Shown piece by piece: positions 37,070 to 45,152 of a DNA stretch of 45,745 nt. A model generated the notes under the pieces. The model did not search any database. It was given only the letters and a program-made list of their open reading frames with translations, and was not told where the DNA came from. How positions within the stretch are numbered: position 1 is the first letter of the stretch; every line of letters begins with the position of its first letter. Position numbers and translations under genes: made by a program. The stretch covers positions 1-45,745 of the forward strand of contig CANHSL010000011.1 of NCBI GenBank assembly GCA_947463385.1, in the 5' to 3' direction. The DNA comes from Flavobacteriales bacterium. Lineage in GTDB: Bacteria > Bacteroidota > Bacteroidia > Flavobacteriales_D > Crocinitomicaceae.

Positions 37070-40000
37070 ATGAAAAATTCAAGTCTACACGTTTGTAAAC
37101 TCATTACACTTGTTTTCGCACTACTTTCCACTGCCTTGCATAGCTACAGCCAGTGTATATTACCTAATCCAACGGTAAATAATGCAAGTACTACATGTGG
37201 ACAAACAGTTACATTAACTGCATCTGGTGGAATCAACTACAATTGGTATTCAAATGCCGCTGGGTCCCAATTTCTTGGAAGCGGAGCAAGCTACATCACG
37301 CCTGTATTAACTACTAATACAACGTATTATGTTCAAGCTGTTTCAGGTGTTGCAAATAACTTATTGCAGTTCACAAATTGTTCTGCTACGGGTGAGACAG
37401 GTCCAACCTTAGCGCAAATGACGGCCGCATATGCTGGAACAAGTTTAGCTGGTTTAGTTACTTCATCTACACAAGGAATTCAAGAGTGGACTGTACCTAC
37501 CACGGGTACCTATACAATTACCGCAGCTGGTGCGAAGGGTGGAGATGCGAATAATGCAATTGGTGGCAGTGGTCGTTCTATAACTATCACCACTACATTA
37601 ACGCAAGGACATGTAATTAAAATTTTAGTAGGTCAGCAAGGTGGAAACCTAAATTTCACTACCGGATGGGCCGGAGGCGGTGGCGGTGGAACGTTTTTAT
37701 ACAATCAAACCACGAATCAACTCATTCTAGTTGCTGGCGGCGGTGGTGGCGCTGCGCAGGGAAGTCCTACCTACCCATATACTCAAAATGGACTGGATGC
37801 CAGCAGTTATAACAACACCTCAGGCAGTAATGGTACGATGTCTGGTGGAAGTTGGTGTCAAGGTGGAAACGGCGGAAGCAATGGATCTGGCGGTGGTGGT
37901 ATTGGGGGTTCTGGTGGAGCTGGATGGTTAAGCAATGGTACAGCAGGTTATTATGGTTTGCCTGGGATTATGTTTTCAAGTGGTGGATTAGGTGGTGTAA
38001 ACTTTTCTGCTTGTGGAAATTGGAATACGAGTACCAACGGTGGTTTTGGAGGAGGTGCTGGAGCAGGTATGTGTACCAGTTATGAAGCGAATGGTGGCGG
38101 CGGTGGCGGCTATTCAGGTGGTGGCGGTGGCGCATGCCGAGTTGGTGCCGGAGGTGGTGGCGGATGTTTTTTCACTGGTACCTATGTATCGGAGAGCTTA
38201 AATGCGGGACACGGATTAGTGGATATTAGTTACGCAGGTGTGCTTTGTACTTCTGCCTTGGTACCTGCAACGGTTACAGTGAATGCGAACATTAACAACC
38301 CGGTAGTTTCTAACGCTGTAGTTTCATGTAATCAATCTGCAACGCTAACAGCTACTGGTGCAAACAATTATAATTGGTATTCAAATGCCAATGGAGCTCA
38401 ATTGCTTGGAACCGGAGCAACATACATTACCCCTTTACTGAATCAAAATACTACATACTATGTTCAATCAACTGCGGGTGTAGGAAATTCCGTATTGAAT
38501 TTCACAAATTGTGGAGCAACTGGCGAAAATGGTCCTACCCTAGCCCAAATGACTTCTGCGTACACGGGTACTTCGTTGGCAGGATTAGTTAGTTCATCCA
38601 TACAAGGAATTCAAGAATGGACGGTACCTTCTACGGGTACATACACCATTACTGCAGCAGGAGCGAAAGGTGGAGATGCAAACAATGCGATTGGCGGAAG
38701 TGGTCGATCGATTACCATAACTACTCCCCTAACCCAAGGACATGTAATCAAAATACTTGTAGGTCAGCAAGGAGGTAACTTGGCCTTTTCAACCGGTTGG
38801 GCCGGAGGCGGAGGCGGAGGAACCTTTGTATATAATCAAACAACCAATCAACTTATTGTAGCTGCTGGTGGCGGTGGTGGCGCAGGAAAAGGCGATCCTA
38901 ATCAATATAACTTTACCTTGAACGGTGGAGATGGCAGTGTTTACAACAACACCTCTGGTGGAACAGGTATTAATTGTCCGCAAAGTTGGTGTTCTGCTGG
39001 AAGTGGAGGTGCTAATGGAGCAGGAGGACTTGCCGGAGGATCACCAAATAATCAAGGTGGTGCAGCTGGTTCAGGTTGGAATTCTCAAGGATCTACAGGT
39101 ACTTATGGAGGAGCAATAGGGCAAACCTTTAATCAAGGTGGTCTTGGAGGCGTTAACCAAGCCGCATGCGGTAACTGGACAAGCAGCAACAATGGCGGCT
39201 TTGGTGGTGGTGGTGGTGCTGGAATGTGCACCAATTACGAAGCGCTTGGTGGCGGCGGTGGAGGATATTCTGGTGGTGGTGGTGCTGGATGCCGAGTTGG
39301 TGCCGGAGGTGGTGGTGGAAGTTATTACACCGGGACATTTGTTACTGAAGGATTGAACGCAGGACATGGCTTAGTAACTGTTAGTTTCACCGGAGTGGTT
39401 TGCTCATCCCCGTTAATTCCAGTTGTTGTTACCGTCAATTCAAATATTAATACACCAACCGTTTCAAATGCCGCTATATCATGTGGTCAAACGGCGACAC
39501 TGGTTGCTTCAGGTGTAAATAATTATATTTGGGCAGGTGATTCACTTGGAACACAAATTTTAGGAAATTCAGCGACCTATACTACGCCAAATCTTACAAC
39601 TACAACCACATATTATGTACAATCTAGTGCTGGTGTAGGAAATTCCGTATTGAATTTTACAAATTGTGGAGCAACAGGCGAGAATGGTCCTACCCTAGCC
39701 CAAATGACTTCTGCATACACGGGAACTTCGTTAGCAGGATTGGTAAATTCATCCACACAAGGAATCCAAGAATGGACAGTTCCCTCCACAGGTACATATA
39801 CGATTACCGCAGCTGGAGCTAAAGGAGGTGATGCGAATAATGCGATTGGTGGAAGTGGACGTTCAATTACAATAACTACAACTTTAACGCAAGGACATGT
39901 AATCAAAATACTTGTAGGACAACAAGGAGGAAACTTGGCCTTTTCAACCGGTTGGGCCGGAGGCGGAGGCGGAGGAACCTTTGTATATAATCAAACAACC

Positions 40001-43000
40001 AATCAACTTATTGTAGCTGCTGGTGGCGGTGGCGGCGCAGGAAAAGGTGACCCCAATCAATATAACTTCACTTTGAACGGTGGAGATGGCAGTGTTTACA
40101 ACAACACCTCTGGTGGAACAGGTATTAACTGTCCGCAAAGTTGGTGTTCTGCTGGAAGTGGAGGTGCTAATGGAGCAGGAGGACTTGCCGGAGGATCACC
40201 AAATAATCAAGGTGGTGCAGCTGGTTCAGGTTGGAATTCTCAAGGAGCTACAGGTACTTTTGGCGGAGGAATTGGACAAACCTTTAACCAAGGTGGACTT
40301 GGAGGCGTTAACCAAACCGCATGCGGTAACTGGACAAGCAGCAATAATGGCGGTTTTGGTGGTGGTGGTGGTGCTGGTATGTGCACCAATTACGAAGCGC
40401 TTGGTGGCGGCGGTGGAGGATATTCTGGTGGTGGTGGTGCTGGATGCCGAGTTGGTGCCGGAGGTGGTGGCGGAAGCTATTACACTGGAACTTTTGTTAG
40501 TGAAGGATTAAATGCCGGACATGGCTTAGTTAATATCAACTATAATGGTGTTGTATGCTATTCTCCATTTGTTCCTGTTACAGTAACTGTCAATGGTATT
40601 CAAACCCCAAGTGTAGCAGGAAATTTAAACCTTTGTGGGAACGGCAACAACACCACAACCCTTGTTGCTAGTGGTAGTCCAGCTGGTTATGCATGGTGGT
40701 CCAATGCAAATGGTACAGGTTCACTTGGAAACAGTGCTAGTTATACTACACCAGCAATCAATACTACTACAACCTATTATGTACAATCCATAAACCCACA
40801 AGGTGGATCACAAGTGTATTCATACACAGGTTCAGCTCAAACCTTTACAGCCCCTGTGTCTGGCGTGTATACCTTAGAAGCTTGGGGTGCACAAGGTGGA
40901 AACGACCCTGTTTACCCGAATACTGCGCTCGGAGGAAGAGGAGGATATGCTAAGGGAGATGTTTATCTTGCTGCGGGATCAACGATTTATGTGTATGTTG
41001 GTGAACAAGGTTCAGGCTGTATGAATTCCACTTGGAAGTCAACTGGAGGTGGTGGTGCCACAGATTTCAGGTTATCAGGAGGATTATGGAACGATAACGC
41101 AGGGTTGTATTCCCGTATTGTTGTTGCAGGTGGTGGCGGTGGTCGTCATGGCACTAACTATGAGAATGCCTTGTATGTAGGAAACGACGGTGGCGGATTA
41201 AGCGCCCCAAGTTTTGTTTCCAATAGCACATCCATCACTGGATCTAATCAAACCTCGGGTGGAGCTTCAAATTATGGATCGGCCGTTGTACCTGGATCTT
41301 TTGGCTTTGCTACACCTAATAATCAAAGTAACTCCTGTTCACTTGGTGGATGGAACGGTGGTGCACGCGGTTCTGACAACTGGGCTAACGGCGGAGCAGG
41401 TGGTGGATGGTATGGTGGATGCACCAGTTGGCCAACATCTTCTGGTGGATCAGGATATGTTTACACTTCTAGCTCCTTCATACCTGCAGGATACACACCG
41501 GTTGCAGCGTATCAATTGACCAACACGCAGTTAATCGCTGGTGACGCAACGATGCCTGATATTAATGGAAACTTGGTAACTGGAAACAGTGGAAATGGTA
41601 ATGCGAAAATCTCTTGGAGTGGAACTGGTTGCAGTTCAAGTATTGTCCCAGTGACTGTAATTGCCGGACAAAGTCCGACGGTGACAGCCGGAGCCAATCA
41701 AAGCATTTGTTCTGGAACATCGATTACACTAAACGGATCGGGTGCCGCAACCTACTCATGGGATAATAATGTTCAAAACGGCGTAGCATTTACTCCAAAT
41801 ACAACACAAACTTACACTGTTACAGGAACAGCAGCTAATGGGTGTACCAATACCGCACTAGTTACTGTTACCGTCAATGCATTACCAACTGTATCTGGTG
41901 GTCAAAATCAAACAGTGTGCGCAGGTAACCCTGTTACCTTAGCAGGCTCAGGTGCTTCAAGCTATGCGTGGAGTAATAATGTGCAAAACGGCGTAGCATT
42001 TACTCCAAATACAACACAAACTTACACTGTTACCGGAACAGCAGCCAATGGGTGTACGAATACCGCTCAAGTTACTGTTACCGTCAATGCATTACCAACT
42101 GTATCTGGTGGTCAAAACCAAACGGTGTGTGCAGGCAACCCTGTAACCTTAGCAGGCTCAGGTGCTTCTAGCTATGCATGGAATAATAATGTACAGAACG
42201 GCGTAGCATTTACTCCAAATACAACGCAAACCTATACCGTTACCGGAACAGCAGCCAATGGGTGTACGAATACCGCACAAGTTACTGTTACCGTCAATGC
42301 ATTACCAACTGTATCTGGTGGTCAAAACCAAACGGTGTGTGCAGGCAACCCTGTTACCTTAGCAGGATCTGGTGCTTCAAGCTATGCGTGGAATAATAAT
42401 GTACAAAACGGCGTAGGATTTACTCCAAATACAACGCAAACCTATACCGTTACCGGAACAACAGCTAATGGATGTACGAATACCGCACAAGTTACTGTTA
42501 CCGTCAATGCATTACCAACTGTATCTGGTGGTCAAAACCAAACAGTGTGTGCAGGTAACCCTGTTACCTTAGCCGGATCTGGTGCTTCTAGTTATGCATG
42601 GAATAATAATGTGCAAAATGGCGTAGCATTTACTCCAAATACAACACAAACGTACACAGTTACCGGAACAGCAGCCAATGGGTGTACGAATACCGCTCAA
42701 GTTCAAGTAACGGTGAATCCATTACCAACTGTAAGTCTTGGAAACGACACCTTGGTTTGTGAATACAATTTCCCAATTACCATTCAAGCAAATGGCAACG
42801 CGAATTTGACATATACCTGGAATAACGGATCTCTAGGACAATCGCTTTTAGTAAATGGAGCAGGAACTTATGATGTAACAGCAAGCGACAACAACGGATG
42901 TTCGGCTACTGATGACATCATTATTGAATCTGATCCGTGCGCTGGAATCGTTGAACACGAGATTGGTATCCAACTTTACCCGAATCCATTTAATGAAAAC

Positions 43001-43192
43001 GTAATCATTCACTCCACTGAATCAATCGATGCACATCTTGAAGTGTATGGTTCAGACGGACGAGTGGTCTTTGCAATGGAAATGACTGGCGATATAGCGA
43101 CTATTAACTTGGCAACGCTAGCACGCGGAAATTATGTGGTGAAAATCTTATACAACGGAAAAACACAGATGACTAAGCTTATCAAGCAATAA
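37070..43192 (+). CDS. Giant glycine-rich repeat protein with Ig-like repeats and T9SS sorting domain
   Basis: A 2040-residue surface protein. Signal peptide 1-28 (MKNSSLHVCKLITLVFALLS to HSYSQ). Three blocks of 377, 385 and 384 residues (from about 34, 411 and 796) each hold an Ig-like start, a TGExGPTLAQM segment and a glycine-rich domain with WAGGGGGGTF, VAGGGGGA and repeated GGGG loops. A fourth, diverged glycine-rich domain (about 1180-1535) resembles the Gly_rich domain (FTAPVSGVYTLEAWGAQGG). Five tandem 70-residue Ig-like repeats follow (1536-1885), then one PKD-like module and a C-terminal T9SS signal (YPNPFNENVIIHS to LIKQ). No catalytic motif; an adhesin or matrix/gliding role is inference. 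A clear terminator follows. Confidence 0.93.
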   Translation: MKNSSLHVCKLITLVFALLSTALHSYSQCILPNPTVNNASTTCGQTVTLTASGGINYNWYSNAAGSQFLGSGASYITPVLTTNTTYYVQAVSGVANNLLQFTNCSATGETGPTLAQMTAAYAGTSLAGLVTSSTQGIQEWTVPTTGTYTITAAGAKGGDANNAIGGSGRSITITTTLTQGHVIKILVGQQGGNLNFTTGWAGGGGGGTFLYNQTTNQLILVAGGGGGAAQGSPTYPYTQNGLDASSYNNTSGSNGTMSGGSWCQGGNGGSNGSGGGGIGGSGGAGWLSNGTAGYYGLPGIMFSSGGLGGVNFSACGNWNTSTNGGFGGGAGAGMCTSYEANGGGGGGYSGGGGGACRVGAGGGGGCFFTGTYVSESLNAGHGLVDISYAGVLCTSALVPATVTVNANINNPVVSNAVVSCNQSATLTATGANNYNWYSNANGAQLLGTGATYITPLLNQNTTYYVQSTAGVGNSVLNFTNCGATGENGPTLAQMTSAYTGTSLAGLVSSSIQGIQEWTVPSTGTYTITAAGAKGGDANNAIGGSGRSITITTPLTQGHVIKILVGQQGGNLAFSTGWAGGGGGGTFVYNQTTNQLIVAAGGGGGAGKGDPNQYNFTLNGGDGSVYNNTSGGTGINCPQSWCSAGSGGANGAGGLAGGSPNNQGGAAGSGWNSQGSTGTYGGAIGQTFNQGGLGGVNQAACGNWTSSNNGGFGGGGGAGMCTNYEALGGGGGGYSGGGGAGCRVGAGGGGGSYYTGTFVTEGLNAGHGLVTVSFTGVVCSSPLIPVVVTVNSNINTPTVSNAAISCGQTATLVASGVNNYIWAGDSLGTQILGNSATYTTPNLTTTTTYYVQSSAGVGNSVLNFTNCGATGENGPTLAQMTSAYTGTSLAGLVNSSTQGIQEWTVPSTGTYTITAAGAKGGDANNAIGGSGRSITITTTLTQGHVIKILVGQQGGNLAFSTGWAGGGGGGTFVYNQTTNQLIVAAGGGGGAGKGDPNQYNFTLNGGDGSVYNNTSGGTGINCPQSWCSAGSGGANGAGGLAGGSPNNQGGAAGSGWNSQGATGTFGGGIGQTFNQGGLGGVNQTACGNWTSSNNGGFGGGGGAGMCTNYEALGGGGGGYSGGGGAGCRVGAGGGGGSYYTGTFVSEGLNAGHGLVNINYNGVVCYSPFVPVTVTVNGIQTPSVAGNLNLCGNGNNTTTLVASGSPAGYAWWSNANGTGSLGNSASYTTPAINTTTTYYVQSINPQGGSQVYSYTGSAQTFTAPVSGVYTLEAWGAQGGNDPVYPNTALGGRGGYAKGDVYLAAGSTIYVYVGEQGSGCMNSTWKSTGGGGATDFRLSGGLWNDNAGLYSRIVVAGGGGGRHGTNYENALYVGNDGGGLSAPSFVSNSTSITGSNQTSGGASNYGSAVVPGSFGFATPNNQSNSCSLGGWNGGARGSDNWANGGAGGGWYGGCTSWPTSSGGSGYVYTSSSFIPAGYTPVAAYQLTNTQLIAGDATMPDINGNLVTGNSGNGNAKISWSGTGCSSSIVPVTVIAGQSPTVTAGANQSICSGTSITLNGSGAATYSWDNNVQNGVAFTPNTTQTYTVTGTAANGCTNTALVTVTVNALPTVSGGQNQTVCAGNPVTLAGSGASSYAWSNNVQNGVAFTPNTTQTYTVTGTAANGCTNTAQVTVTVNALPTVSGGQNQTVCAGNPVTLAGSGASSYAWNNNVQNGVAFTPNTTQTYTVTGTAANGCTNTAQVTVTVNALPTVSGGQNQTVCAGNPVTLAGSGASSYAWNNNVQNGVGFTPNTTQTYTVTGTTANGCTNTAQVTVTVNALPTVSGGQNQTVCAGNPVTLAGSGASSYAWNNNVQNGVAFTPNTTQTYTVTGTAANGCTNTAQVQVTVNPLPTVSLGNDTLVCEYNFPITIQANGNANLTYTWNNGSLGQSLLVNGAGTYDVTASDNNGCSATDDIIIESDPCAGIVEHEIGIQLYPNPFNENVIIHSTESIDAHLEVYGSDGRVVFAMEMTGDIATINLATLARGNYVVKILYNGKTQMTKLIKQ
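37169..40606 (+). repeat. Three tandem about 1.13-1.16 kb coding repeats
   Basis: Block boundaries set at the (N/T)P(T/V)V segment give 1131, 1155 and 1152 bp (37169, 38300, 39455, end 40606), all multiples of 3. Blocks 2 and 3 are nearly identical over long stretches at nucleotide level (compare 38790-39350 with 39945-40505), while block 1 is more diverged. Confidence 0.9.
41675..42724 (+). repeat. Five 210-bp tandem repeats encoding Ig-like domains
   Basis: Units start at 41675, 41885, 42095, 42305 and 42515. Each encodes 70 residues with NQTVCAGNPVTLAGSGASSY, TPNTTQTYTVTGT and ANGCTNTAQVTVTVNALPTV. The first is the most diverged; units 2-5 differ at few bases. Confidence 0.93.
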
Positions 43193-43215: not shown

Positions 43216-43239
43216 AAAGGGACTTCGGTCCCTTTTTTT
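43216..43239 (+). terminator. Rho-independent terminator after the giant T9SS gene
   Basis: AAAGGGAC and GTCCCTTT pair around a UUCG tetraloop (43224-43227), followed by a T run through 43239. The repeat array starts 5 bp later. Confidence 0.9.
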
Positions 43240-43244
43240 ATTCC

Positions 43245-43725
43245 CCGTGGACTGAGTGGTCCGCCGTGGCGGAGTTGTATCGAAGGCCACTTCACCTTAT
43301 CGCAGGCTTCGATACACTGCGTTACTCAGCCTGCTTTACCTCCCCGTGGACTGAGTGGTCCGCTGTGGCGGAGTGTATCGAAGGCCACATCATCACATCG
43401 CAGGCTTCGATACACTGCGTTACTCAGCCTGCTGAAGACCCGTGGACTGAGTGACCCGAAGGATTGTATCGAAGGCCACATCATCATAATCGCAGGCTTC
43501 GATATACTGCGTTACTCAGCCTGCTTTTACCTCCCCGTGGACTGAGTGGTCCGCTGTGGCGGAGTGTACCGAAGGCCACTTCACCATAACCGCAGGCTTC
43601 GATACACTGCGTTACTCAGCCTGCTGAAGACCCGTGGACTGAGTGACCCGAAGGATTGTATCGAAGGCCACATCACTACAATCGCAGACTTCGATACGTA
43701 TGCCGCAGCATACTACTCAGCCTGC
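43245..43725. repeat. Left part of palindromic repeat array (units 1-5)
   Basis: Five units at 43245-43334, 43344-43432, 43440-43524, 43535-43624 and 43632-43725. Each has module A, a hairpin from GTGGACTGAGT to GTATCGAAGGCCAC with outer 7-bp arms, and module B, a hairpin with arms GCAGGCT/AGCCTGC. Read on the minus strand, module B starts CTGAGTAACGC and ends GTATCGAAG, so A and B are related elements in opposite orientation. Units 3 and 5 have the short inner segment GACCCGAAGGATT. Module B of unit 5 has a longer inner stem (GTATGC/GCATAC around CGCA). Spacers alternate between TTTACCTCC-like and TGAAGAC. Together with the terminator this fills the 591-bp gap before 43784; 43726-43783 shows nothing else. 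Confidence 0.93.
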
Positions 43726-43783
43726 TTGTAAATAATGGGCAATAATTTTAGAACCTATCGTTTTCTTCTAACCAAAATTATCT

Positions 43784-44095
43784 ATGGCTGGATTCATGTA
43801 TATTCTCAAATGTGCAAACGGAACGTTTTACGTCGGGAGTACAAAAAATTTAATAAGAAGAATTCAAGAACATGAAACTGGAAATGGAGCTAATCACACG
43901 AAGCGTTATGGTCCAGTTGAGCTAGTTTACTTTGAAATATACCAACGAATTGATTTTGCTTATTACCGAGAAAAACAAATACAGGGTTGGACAAGAAAAA
44001 AGAAACAAGCCCTAATTGATGGAGAATATCCAAACTTAAAATATGCTGCTAAGAAAATCTTTAGAGCCAACTCAATAAATCTACCCGTGGACTGA
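43784..44095 (+). CDS. GIY-YIG endonuclease embedded in the repeat array
   Basis: A 103-residue single-domain GIY-YIG nuclease. FMYILKCANGTFYVGST (4-20) gives the two-strand motif with Tyr6 and Tyr16-Val-Gly18; R25/R26 and H30 lie in NLIRRIQEH, and E63 in YYREKQIQGWTRKKKQAL is the metal ligand, so the active site looks intact. There is no extra DNA-binding domain, as in UPF0213-type proteins. The last codons (Pro, Val, Asp and TGA) come from the first bases of repeat unit 6, so the repeat provides the stop. Repeat units flank it on both sides. It has no clear own promoter and no co-directed neighbour. Cutting or copying the repeats is a hypothesis. Confidence 0.9.
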   Translation: MAGFMYILKCANGTFYVGSTKNLIRRIQEHETGNGANHTKRYGPVELVYFEIYQRIDFAYYREKQIQGWTRKKKQALIDGEYPNLKYAAKKIFRANSINLPVD

Positions 44096-44522
44096 GTGGT
44101 CCGCTGTGGCGGAGTGTACCGAAGGCCACATCACCTTATCGCAGGCTTCGATATACTGCGTTACTCAGCCTGCTTAATTACACCGTGGACTGAGTGGTCC
44201 GCCGTGGCGGAGTGTATCGAAGGCCACATCATCACATCGCAGGCTTCGATACACTGCGTTACTCAGCCTGCTTTTACCTCCCCGTGGACTGAGTGGTCCG
44301 CTGTGGCGGAGTGTACCGAAGGCCACATCATCACATCGCAGGCTTCGATACACTGCGTTACTCAGCCTGCTTAATTACACCGTGGACTGAGTGGTCCGCT
44401 GTGGCGGAGTGTATCGAAGGCCACATCACCTTATCGCAGGCTTCGATATACTGCGTTACTCAGCCTGCTTAATTACACCGTGGACTGAGTGGTCCGCCGT
44501 GGCGGAGTGTATCGAAGGCCAC
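44085..44522. repeat. Right part of palindromic repeat array (units 6-10)
   Basis: Units at 44085-44173, 44183-44271, 44282-44370, 44380-44468, and a half unit (module A only) at 44478-44522. The inner hairpin is TCCGC/GCGGA around TGTG or CGTG. Spacers are mostly TTAATTACA, unlike the left part, once TTTTACCTC. The last unit breaks off right after GGCCAC, 9 bp before the stop codon of the minus-strand gene at 44532. This accounts for the 436-bp gap; no gene is supported in it. Confidence 0.93.
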
Positions 44523-44531
44523 GTACTAGAA

Positions 44532-45152
44532 TTATTTCGAATTTGATTGAATATATTGAACCCAAGCCTCTTGATATTCCTGGGCCAAGGCTGGTGTTAA
44601 TTCAATCCCTACAGAAGCAAAGGATTCTCCAGTCATCCAATTTAGAATCCACGAGGCTCGTCCAGCAATGGTGAAAATATCCTCTTGCATCCCTCCTCCA
44701 TGCCCATAAAATTTCAGCTCACCGGTTCGAATTCGATCCCAAATGATTAAATCGGCGGTATTTACCAAGCCAATTTTAGTTTTATTCGACAACCTGCAAA
44801 TTAAATGCGGGAACACCTCCGAGGGATGAGCGAAACACCATGTTTTTGCAGCACATAATCTCCAAAACTCCTGTTCCGTATCGATGATTTCTAGCACACT
44901 ATTTAAAGAAAACCCAAGCGTATCGTTCGAACTATAAAACCTATATTCACGCTGTTCTTCAATCCAAGCGGTTGGTTTTTTGAACGATGGAGGTAACGAA
45001 TAGCTCGCTCGAAGGGAATCTTGGTGATTGAAATATAGAAAGGTATCGGCCACAGGTTTCCAAAAATCGTTGGATTCAACGGTGATTTCTTGCTGAGCCG
45101 TCAAACGAACCGCAAGAAGTAATAAAATACCCGCTAAGAGAATTCTAATCAT
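44532..45152 (-). CDS. Exported protein of unknown function, coupled to acs
   Basis: A 206-residue predicted periplasmic protein. The signal peptide [20 protein letters not shown] is clear. The mature part has no recognised domain. It shows aromatic-rich stretches ([18 protein letters not shown]), a cysteine pair region ([23 protein letters not shown], about residues 97-119), and [26 protein letters not shown] near 150-175. Its ATG overlaps the stop of the acetyl-CoA synthetase gene (ATGA), so the two are translationally coupled. The repeat array begins 9 bp after its stop. I do not recognise the family. Confidence 0.7.

Follow-up and report, generated by a model that had tools for sequence, protein, structure and literature searches.

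The window analyzed in this study, a contig stretch of 45,745 nucleotides (45.7 kb) from a Flavobacteriales bacterium, carries an array of palindromic repeats that is broken once, by a small gene for a GIY-YIG nuclease. The boundaries (43245 to 44522) and the number of units (nine full, one half) given in the initial annotation proved to be correct, as did its placement of the two edges: the left edge lies closely 3′ of a terminator-like hairpin (approximately 43216 to 43239, read by eye), and the convergent ORF at 44532 has its stop 9 bp from the right edge. A property absent from that annotation is that the array units are hairpins with a conserved GA/GA mismatch. Ten A-type hairpins on the plus strand alternate with nine B-type hairpins on the minus strand at a spacing of 92 to 101 bp, and the nuclease ORF is placed between B5 and A6. 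Using 5-bp arms, the GA/GA detector called 19 hairpins in the array versus 3 elsewhere in the window; since nine altered cores gave 0 to 15 matches in the whole window, these 3 were regarded as background. The gene and the hairpins called by this detector are the following:

43247..43290, + strand, hairpin A1
43302..43334, − strand, hairpin B1
43346..43388, + strand, hairpin A2
43400..43432, − strand, hairpin B2
43442..43479, + strand, hairpin A3, different inner stem
43492..43524, − strand, hairpin B3
43537..43579, + strand, hairpin A4
43592..43624, − strand, hairpin B4
43634..43671, + strand, hairpin A5, different inner stem
43684..43725, − strand, hairpin B5, long inner stem, adjoins the gene start
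43784..44095, + strand, GIY-YIG nuclease gene, 103 aa, PF01541 match of 66 bits
44087..44129, + strand, hairpin A6, supplies the nuclease TGA stop (44093-44095)
44141..44173, − strand, hairpin B6
44185..44227, + strand, hairpin A7
44239..44271, − strand, hairpin B7
44284..44326, + strand, hairpin A8
44338..44370, − strand, hairpin B8
44382..44424, + strand, hairpin A9
44436..44468, − strand, hairpin B9
44480..44522, + strand, hairpin A10, half unit

The outer stem of the A type is formed by GTGGaCT pairing with AGgCCAC and that of the B type by GCAGGCT pairing with AGCCTGC. In both types the outer stem is followed by GA opposite GA, then by a G-C pair, and then by a unit-specific loop or inner hairpin. 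The 9 nt located 5′ of GAG read CCGTGGACT in A and AAGCAGGCT or CAGCAGGCT in B; a GTAG tag was not found at the foot of the window hairpins, and a CGTC, TGTC, or CCTC tag was present in 0 of 19. Upstream of the array lies a 2040-aa ORF (37070-43192, plus strand) with glycine-rich repeats, in which four near-identical tandem modules are preceded by a more divergent one and whose C-terminal tail (IQLYPNPF...) we take to be sorting-like. The sequence at the site of this ORF is different in the nearest relative (G024).

The annotated presence of one intact GIY-YIG gene was borne out by the PF01541 score, which compares with a cut-off of 22.6 bits. Residues Y6, Y16, G18, R26, H30, and E63, presumably the catalytic residues of the GIY-YIG domain, were invariant across 24 sequences, and the stop codon is the TGA of the CTGAG foot of A6. 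An AlphaFold model of the protein (pLDDT of 88) had as its nearest solved folds the UPF0213 proteins 1zg2 and 1ywl, titled only UPF0213 protein and protein EF2693, and then Slx1, and the sequence search agreed. Of the solved folds with an established nuclease function, Slx1, a structure-specific nuclease, is the nearest, and its entry titles name branched DNA as the substrate. The UPF0213-like small GIY-YIG family, which we take to be COG2827, resembles the window protein in fold and in length (1zg2, 1ywl, and Bacillus subtilis YazA); unlike the window gene, a plasmid copy of yazA is located among tRNA/rRNA methyltransferase genes without flanking hairpins. TIGR01453 and phrog_314 matched the nuclease weakly, TIGR01453 below its cut-off. 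PADLOC, which searches for defense systems, returned no match, and a reading as a defense system was dropped. The protein of G024 has the same sequence, and the codons of the two genes show 8 synonymous and 0 nonsynonymous changes, pointing to strong purifying selection. The downstream neighbor differs between the two genomes at a dN of 0.052 and a dS of 0.152; their arrays consist of differing units and are preceded on the left by unrelated sequence.

The search of the own genome (G000) proposed in the initial annotation, for CTGAGTN{8,25}GTATCGAAG, revealed 32 exact matches (reversed control, 0), of which 13 belong to the array and the remaining 19 are spread over 11 further contigs. The dispersed copies mostly have a CCCT/AGGG outer stem, unlike those of the array, and one (C112) is of the B type. 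Those with another outer stem on contigs C38, C82, and C100 (L398, L403, and L404) are located in mosaic intergenic regions with many other repeats. The genome contains one small GIY-YIG gene, two further PF01541 matches in ORFs as long as UvrC and DnaQ-type proteins (618 and 459 aa, respectively), and four Y1_Tnp matches. Within the genus, a close homologue (best E value of <1e-25) was present in 10 of 60 other genomes, a patchy distribution. In G042, the 1.5 kb past the end of the orthologue of the downstream gene contained neither repeats nor the nuclease when inspected by eye, in DNA too diverged for calling an empty site.

Hairpins at homologous nuclease loci

Among 30 homologue loci from the genus search, 17 had at least one CTGAG-N(5-30)-CGAAG motif and 13 had none. 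Four of these 13 (L018, L023, L025, and L026) encode proteins 53 to 60% identical to that of the window, and inspection of L018, L023, and L026 by eye showed different feet (e.g., CGAG/CGAG) around a retained GA/GA. Therefore, we adopted a structural detector, X-GAG-N(3-34)-CGA-X′, which requires a 6-bp arm and tolerates no more than one mismatch. Homologues were searched with a profile from an alignment of 16 homologues picked by similarity and not by their flanks, and the flank sample consisted of the best 80 of at least 580 relatives in genome contigs. These 80 were mostly from Bacteroidota; by record label, a minority came from Calditrichota, Ignavibacteriales, Rhodobacteraceae, Sulfurovum, “Candidatus Electronema,” Fibrobacter, and “Candidatus Kuenenia,” all of them metagenome-assembled genomes and represented by single or few records each.

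Close homologues were usually flanked, in line with the initial annotation: 77 of these best 80 loci had a hairpin within 600 bp. The detector gave 331 matches in 92.8 kb near the genes (nested ones included) versus 82 in 673 kb far from them, and nine altered cores gave 3 to 18 near and 16 to 44 far. When only noncoding sequence was counted (ORFs of ≥90 aa masked, overlaps removed, and L045, the contig of query row L016, dropped), the hairpin density was 6.01/kb near versus 0.25/kb far, and four altered cores yielded 0 to 0.08/kb. Chance or base composition was therefore rejected as the source of the hairpins. At two of the three unflanked loci (L083 and L089), a hairpin that contains a second mismatch lies at the stop codon. 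A hairpin within 600 bp was found at 28 of the 30 best Bacteroidota loci, the window being one of them, and at 15 of 20 loci with homologues scoring 88 to 113 bits (L234 repeats L154). The expectation that homologues are flanked thus held for close ones and failed for distant Bacteroidota homologues (72 to 84 bits), of which 5 of 19 had a hairpin.

An agnostic bracket test, which asks for an exact inverted repeat of ≥14 nt around the gene, gave a similar separation, with 23/75 and 12/27 homologue loci versus 0/274 and 0/106 control windows. The result was 1/19 versus 0/76 for the distant Bacteroidota homologues and 11/29 versus 1/114 for Y1 transposases, which served as a positive control with their own repeats. 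The 0/17 obtained for UvrC/DnaQ-type genes is uninformative, because these windows lie mostly within the gene. The idea that any GIY-YIG gene attracts hairpins was rejected using 30 PF01541 loci of 16 repeat-rich genomes without the family: a hairpin lay within 600 bp of 3 of 13 small genes (one G239 element accounts for two of them) and of 1 of 17 genes of UvrC/DnaQ size, which are weak controls because much of the 600-bp window is coding. Small GIY-YIG genes of a distant group also occur in tandem, with five copies at a 450-bp period in one genome (G343:C1:120132-122135) and three at a 317-bp period in another (G239:C1:1733881-1734727).

The placement of the hairpins relative to the gene was regular. 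In the best 80 of at least 580 loci, a hairpin was present within 400 bp upstream in 58, at a median distance of 37.5 bp from the start codon, and downstream in 62, where the median distance to the stop was 3.5 bp; many nuclease ORFs run into the downstream hairpin. Both sides were occupied in 45 of the 80, most commonly by a plus-strand hairpin upstream and a minus-strand hairpin downstream with the tags pointing outward (21/45); the window represents the rarer (−,+) arrangement (7/45). At L017 (1501-2616) and L021 (1501-2232), the nuclease frame continues through the hairpins into long tails of PQSRPE-type repeats (371 and 243 aa), and the repeats are therefore read as protein.

At these loci the hairpin is an imperfect palindrome with a variable, covarying outer stem, an invariant GA/GA, a G-C pair, and a variable loop or inner hairpin. 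In 297 matches selected by the core only (75 of 80 loci), the outward positions 1 to 6 were paired in 95, 94, 88, 88, 80, and 69% of cases versus 90, 55, 33, 42, 51, and 34% with shuffled right arms. Covariation was assessed within the CGNAGY loop class with one hairpin per locus (38 sequences, reduced to 37 by the removal of one that contained Ns). Outer-stem cells were paired in 91.5% versus 66.7% after shuffling, double changes numbered 69 versus 22.4, and the covariation score was 0.661 versus 0.196, with 0 of 500 shuffles as high; the covariation was lost when the partner was slid. Two of five covariation measures were not clearly above the shuffles, namely, double-change pairs (180/500) and further pair types (47/500). 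A DNA folding program paired the outer stems at modest energies (−6 to −8.2 kcal/mol; z scores of −1.5 to −3.1). Tandem mismatches of the 5′-Py-GA-Pu type form stable sheared pairs in DNA. Since the GA/GA mismatch is absent from duplex DNA and yet is invariant amid compensating stems, these patterns suggest that a self-folded strand is the target.

Hairpin type, nuclease clade, and repeats without the gene

Hairpin types were compared with a tree of 127 nuclease proteins (94 columns, few well-supported branches). Six hairpin-class labels, including “none” and “other,” required 34 changes on this tree versus 68.3 after shuffling (0 of 200 shuffles as low), a clustering that may be inflated by near-copies and host kinship. 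In a clade of 27 that contains the Kuenenia protein, the main loop class was 5 nt at every locus. The tag, located on the 5′ side of the hairpin at the outer stem edge, also differed between nuclease clades and was of a GG type or [CT][GC]TC at homologous loci outside the window. In a sub-clade of 25 (24 with hairpins), [CT][GC]TC was the majority tag at 17 of 24 loci versus 0 of 100 elsewhere (P = 1e-15), and 75 of 109 hairpins of the sub-clade carried it versus 6 of 422 in the rest; this contrast was spotted by eye and then counted on the same loci. Five genomes have one nuclease of each clade, and among the hairpins listed for them the [CT][GC]TC tag was found only by the sub-clade nuclease (5/5); at L233 it was present on half of the six hairpins listed. 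Two same-genome pairs in which both nucleases belong to the main clade (L052/L093 and L071/L079) differ in loop class. Loop class and tag follow the nuclease clade, also within single genomes.

These observations bear on two readings that do without a partnership of the kind we favor. The window hairpins lie between convergent genes beside a terminator, and the folded strand could be RNA. It is nevertheless very improbable that the hairpins are RNA elements (terminators, mRNA stabilizers, or parts of a feedback on the nuclease message) having no direct dealings with the nuclease, given the clade-specific tags at the outer stem edge and the occurrence of hairpins to either side of the gene and on either strand. 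Alternatively, the enzyme could be a free-standing homing endonuclease for which REP hairpins are the sites of cutting and landing, so that its gene ends up between them, with something else multiplying the hairpins. Free-standing GIY-YIG homing endonucleases have the same catalytic domain in a solitary gene, the domain is typical of homing enzymes, the TIGR01453 and phrog_314 matches are in keeping with it, and repeats occur without the gene. Tag and loop follow the nuclease clade even inside one genome, however, which homing enzymes could match, as they also coevolve with their target, and the gene is tightly bracketed, most often by inverted hairpins. Unlike homing endonuclease genes, the gene discussed here has a clade-specific hairpin bracket and no intron was seen, and the 103-aa window protein lacks a second DNA-binding domain. 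We consider a homing enzyme rather unlikely and prefer to regard nuclease and hairpins as partners.

Repeats and gene are associated across genomes, incompletely so. In 296 Bacteroidota genomes, the repeat excess (CTGAGN{5,6}CGAAG minus its reversed control) had a median of 21 in the 45 genomes with a close homologue, 13 in the 93 with a remote one, and 6 in the 158 with none (P = 6.5e-8 and 5e-6). The co-occurrence proposed in the initial annotation was thus seen among all genomes and was not upheld by permutation within families (P = 0.10). The opposite outcome, abundant repeats in the absence of the gene, was found in part, with an excess of ≥15 in 38 of the 158 genomes without a homologue at an E value of <1e-15. 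One of these, G111 (one contig), has 236 repeats versus 6 control matches and lacks both a small GIY-YIG gene and a Y1_Tnp match; eight plus/minus doublets were among the first matches listed, and several matches form regular doublets approximately 43 bp apart (L186-L213). Therefore, either the repeats last longer or spread farther than the gene, or additional agents are at work. A Y1 (RAYT-like) transposase located elsewhere, with the GIY-YIG gene as a passenger, would be one such agent, and the four Y1_Tnp matches in the own genome would allow for it. It was rejected as the mover and is hardly credible, since a GA hairpin lay near 2 of 30 Y1_Tnp loci and the repeat-rich genomes G111, G384, and G350 contained no Y1_Tnp match at an E value of ≤0.001.

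Comparisons between related loci bear on mobility indirectly. G017 and G047 are 96.5% identical over 5.2 kb and differ by one unit of approximately 141 bp beside the nuclease; a comparison of the two for insertion polymorphism led nowhere, because no dispersed copy of their hairpin type was found in 400 kb of G047. At L133 and L143, which represent the same locus, the arrays differ greatly. L135 and L143 are 89% identical over 319 bp and have nothing else in common across 3.3 kb, and the similarity between L050 (Bacteroidales) and L099 (Kuenenia record) is confined, within 12 kb, to 249 bp at 84%. Neither a clean empty site nor a target duplication was found among the loci compared. The enzyme might instead be a cruciform resolvase, on the side of the host or of an element, that protects replication at the arrays and does not move hairpins; the proximity to Slx1 and the strong purifying selection would fit. 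Such a role appears distinctly improbable in view of the selfish-unit look of the gene, which is patchy in the genus and tightly bracketed, and of the similar genes in records of different phyla (L050 and L099), whose surroundings are unshared. Under the partnership that we prefer, the nuclease would mobilize or amplify the repeats, as the initial annotation suggested; this role, like cleavage, transposition, and the direction of benefit, we infer.

Relation to REP systems and the CGTC superfamily

REP, BIME, and REPIN elements with their RAYT (TnpA-REP) transposases resemble the system described here in several respects: short imperfect hairpins are arranged in inverted doublets or arrays, further hairpins are dispersed in the genome (here mostly with another outer stem), and a single-gene enzyme is bracketed by hairpins that have a foot tag and a conserved stem irregularity. 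Here, the enzyme is a GIY-YIG nuclease and not an HUH Y1 transposase, the tag is not GTAG, and the irregularity is GA/GA, whereas it is AA-GC in REP. According to the accessible part of PMC8266576, the stem irregularity is required for cleavage of the E. coli REP. The accessible text of Di Nocera 2013 (PMC3733652) sorts most REPs into a GTAG and a CGTC superfamily; the latter, with TGTC and CCTC variants, is commonest in Alphaproteobacteria, includes dRS3 of Neisseria and RPE-4/RPE-6 of Rickettsia, and apparently lacks a dedicated transposase. Tyrosine transposase genes are likewise reported there to show no obvious correlation with REP families.

We therefore extended the analysis to 289 genomes of the class of G404, named Alphaproteobacteria after its Rhodobacteraceae label. 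A homologue at an E value of ≤1e-8 was present in 114 of them. The prediction that close homologues are flanked held here too, with a GA hairpin within 200 bp at 27 of 29 loci (of the 30 best, L306 was left out, as it appears to equal L084); both sides were occupied in 16, in (+,−) order in 11, and ten altered cores gave 0 to 6. Many of these tags read CCTC, and GTC and TTC variants were also noted by reading, uncounted. Among 20 lower-scoring loci (66 to 79 bits), 3 had a GA hairpin, and several were bracketed by perfect-stem CGTC-type repeats (e.g., L344); the bracket test gave 7/20 versus 2/80 control windows. A loose tag-plus-stem detector showed no separation at these loci (2.10/kb near versus 1.56/kb far), and a stricter one found 12 matches near, in 7 of 20 loci (1.2/kb), versus 6 far (0.12/kb), a result weakened by the fact that this detector was set after the outcome of the loose one.

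The REP-like pairing suggested in the initial annotation is thus strongly supported for close homologues, by the flanks of 77/80 and 27/29 loci and by the hairpin type that follows the clade; distant homologues are mostly unflanked by GA hairpins. Position, covariation, and clade-specific matching make the nuclease-hairpin partnership well supported. We assign a probability of roughly two-thirds to the reading that nuclease and hairpins are cognate partners, which together make up a REP-like system with a GIY-YIG enzyme at its core. Since most close relatives from distant bacteria have hairpins of this unusual design on either side, the GIY-YIG family is likely, as judged from genome comparison, the partner of a widespread class of genome repeats. 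A class of mobile elements driven by a lone GIY-YIG nuclease outside homing would, to our knowledge, be without precedent.

A mechanism can be proposed on this basis. The enzyme would recognize a self-folded strand, either single-stranded DNA or a cruciform, reading the GA/GA kink and the tag and nicking near the tag. Hairpin-gene-hairpin would form a self-sufficient unit, and the hairpin doublets (A+ B−) would be REPIN- or MITE-like derivatives of it, amplified and moved in trans via cleavage, repair, or recombination. The family (COG2827/UPF0213-like) could then supply the enzyme that the CGTC REP superfamily appears to lack, in the way that RAYT serves GTAG REPs. A CGTC/TGTC/CCTC-type tag is present by one nuclease sub-clade, as its majority tag, and at many alphaproteobacterial homologues, and the phyla overlap. 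The tag of the window hairpins differs from it, and the GA/GA core is missing from some CGTC-type repeats, such as the perfect-stem type at L344. The full proposal, that GIY-YIG nucleases mobilize, in a transposition-like manner, a second REP superfamily whose hairpin is read in single-stranded form by a tandem G-A kink and a clade tag, whose doublets spread in trans, and whose gene-plus-hairpin module crossed phyla, is accordingly tentative, and we would put it somewhat below even odds.

A link between GIY-YIG enzymes and REPs was not found in the literature searched, which comprised neither bioRxiv nor subscription papers. The accessible part of PMC9465073 has one gene table in which a RayT is listed as well as a GIY-YIG endonuclease and names them only there, and GIY-YIG is not mentioned in the accessible portions of the REP papers PMC12306157 and PMC5082802. 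REPs are abundant and widespread bacterial repeats, and the nuclease family constitutes a concrete transposase candidate for the CGTC superfamily. The system offers a readable specificity code (tag, GA/GA, and loop) together with natural enzyme/substrate pairs inside single genomes; if the nuclease moves DNA, an enzyme class would be added to those of mobile genetic elements.

Homologues are also encoded on plasmids, and nine of 22 matches were looked at by eye. Hairpins were not seen by the homologues of Bacillus subtilis, Cupriavidus, Acetoanaerobium, and Sphingomonas paeninsulae, and flanked homologues were found in Methylobacterium (two), Sphingomonas parapaucimobilis, Planktothrix, and Spirosoma. 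On the Planktothrix agardhii plasmid (L298), the homologue and its TGTC hairpins have drmA of DISARM on one side and a gene for a type IIL restriction enzyme on the other.
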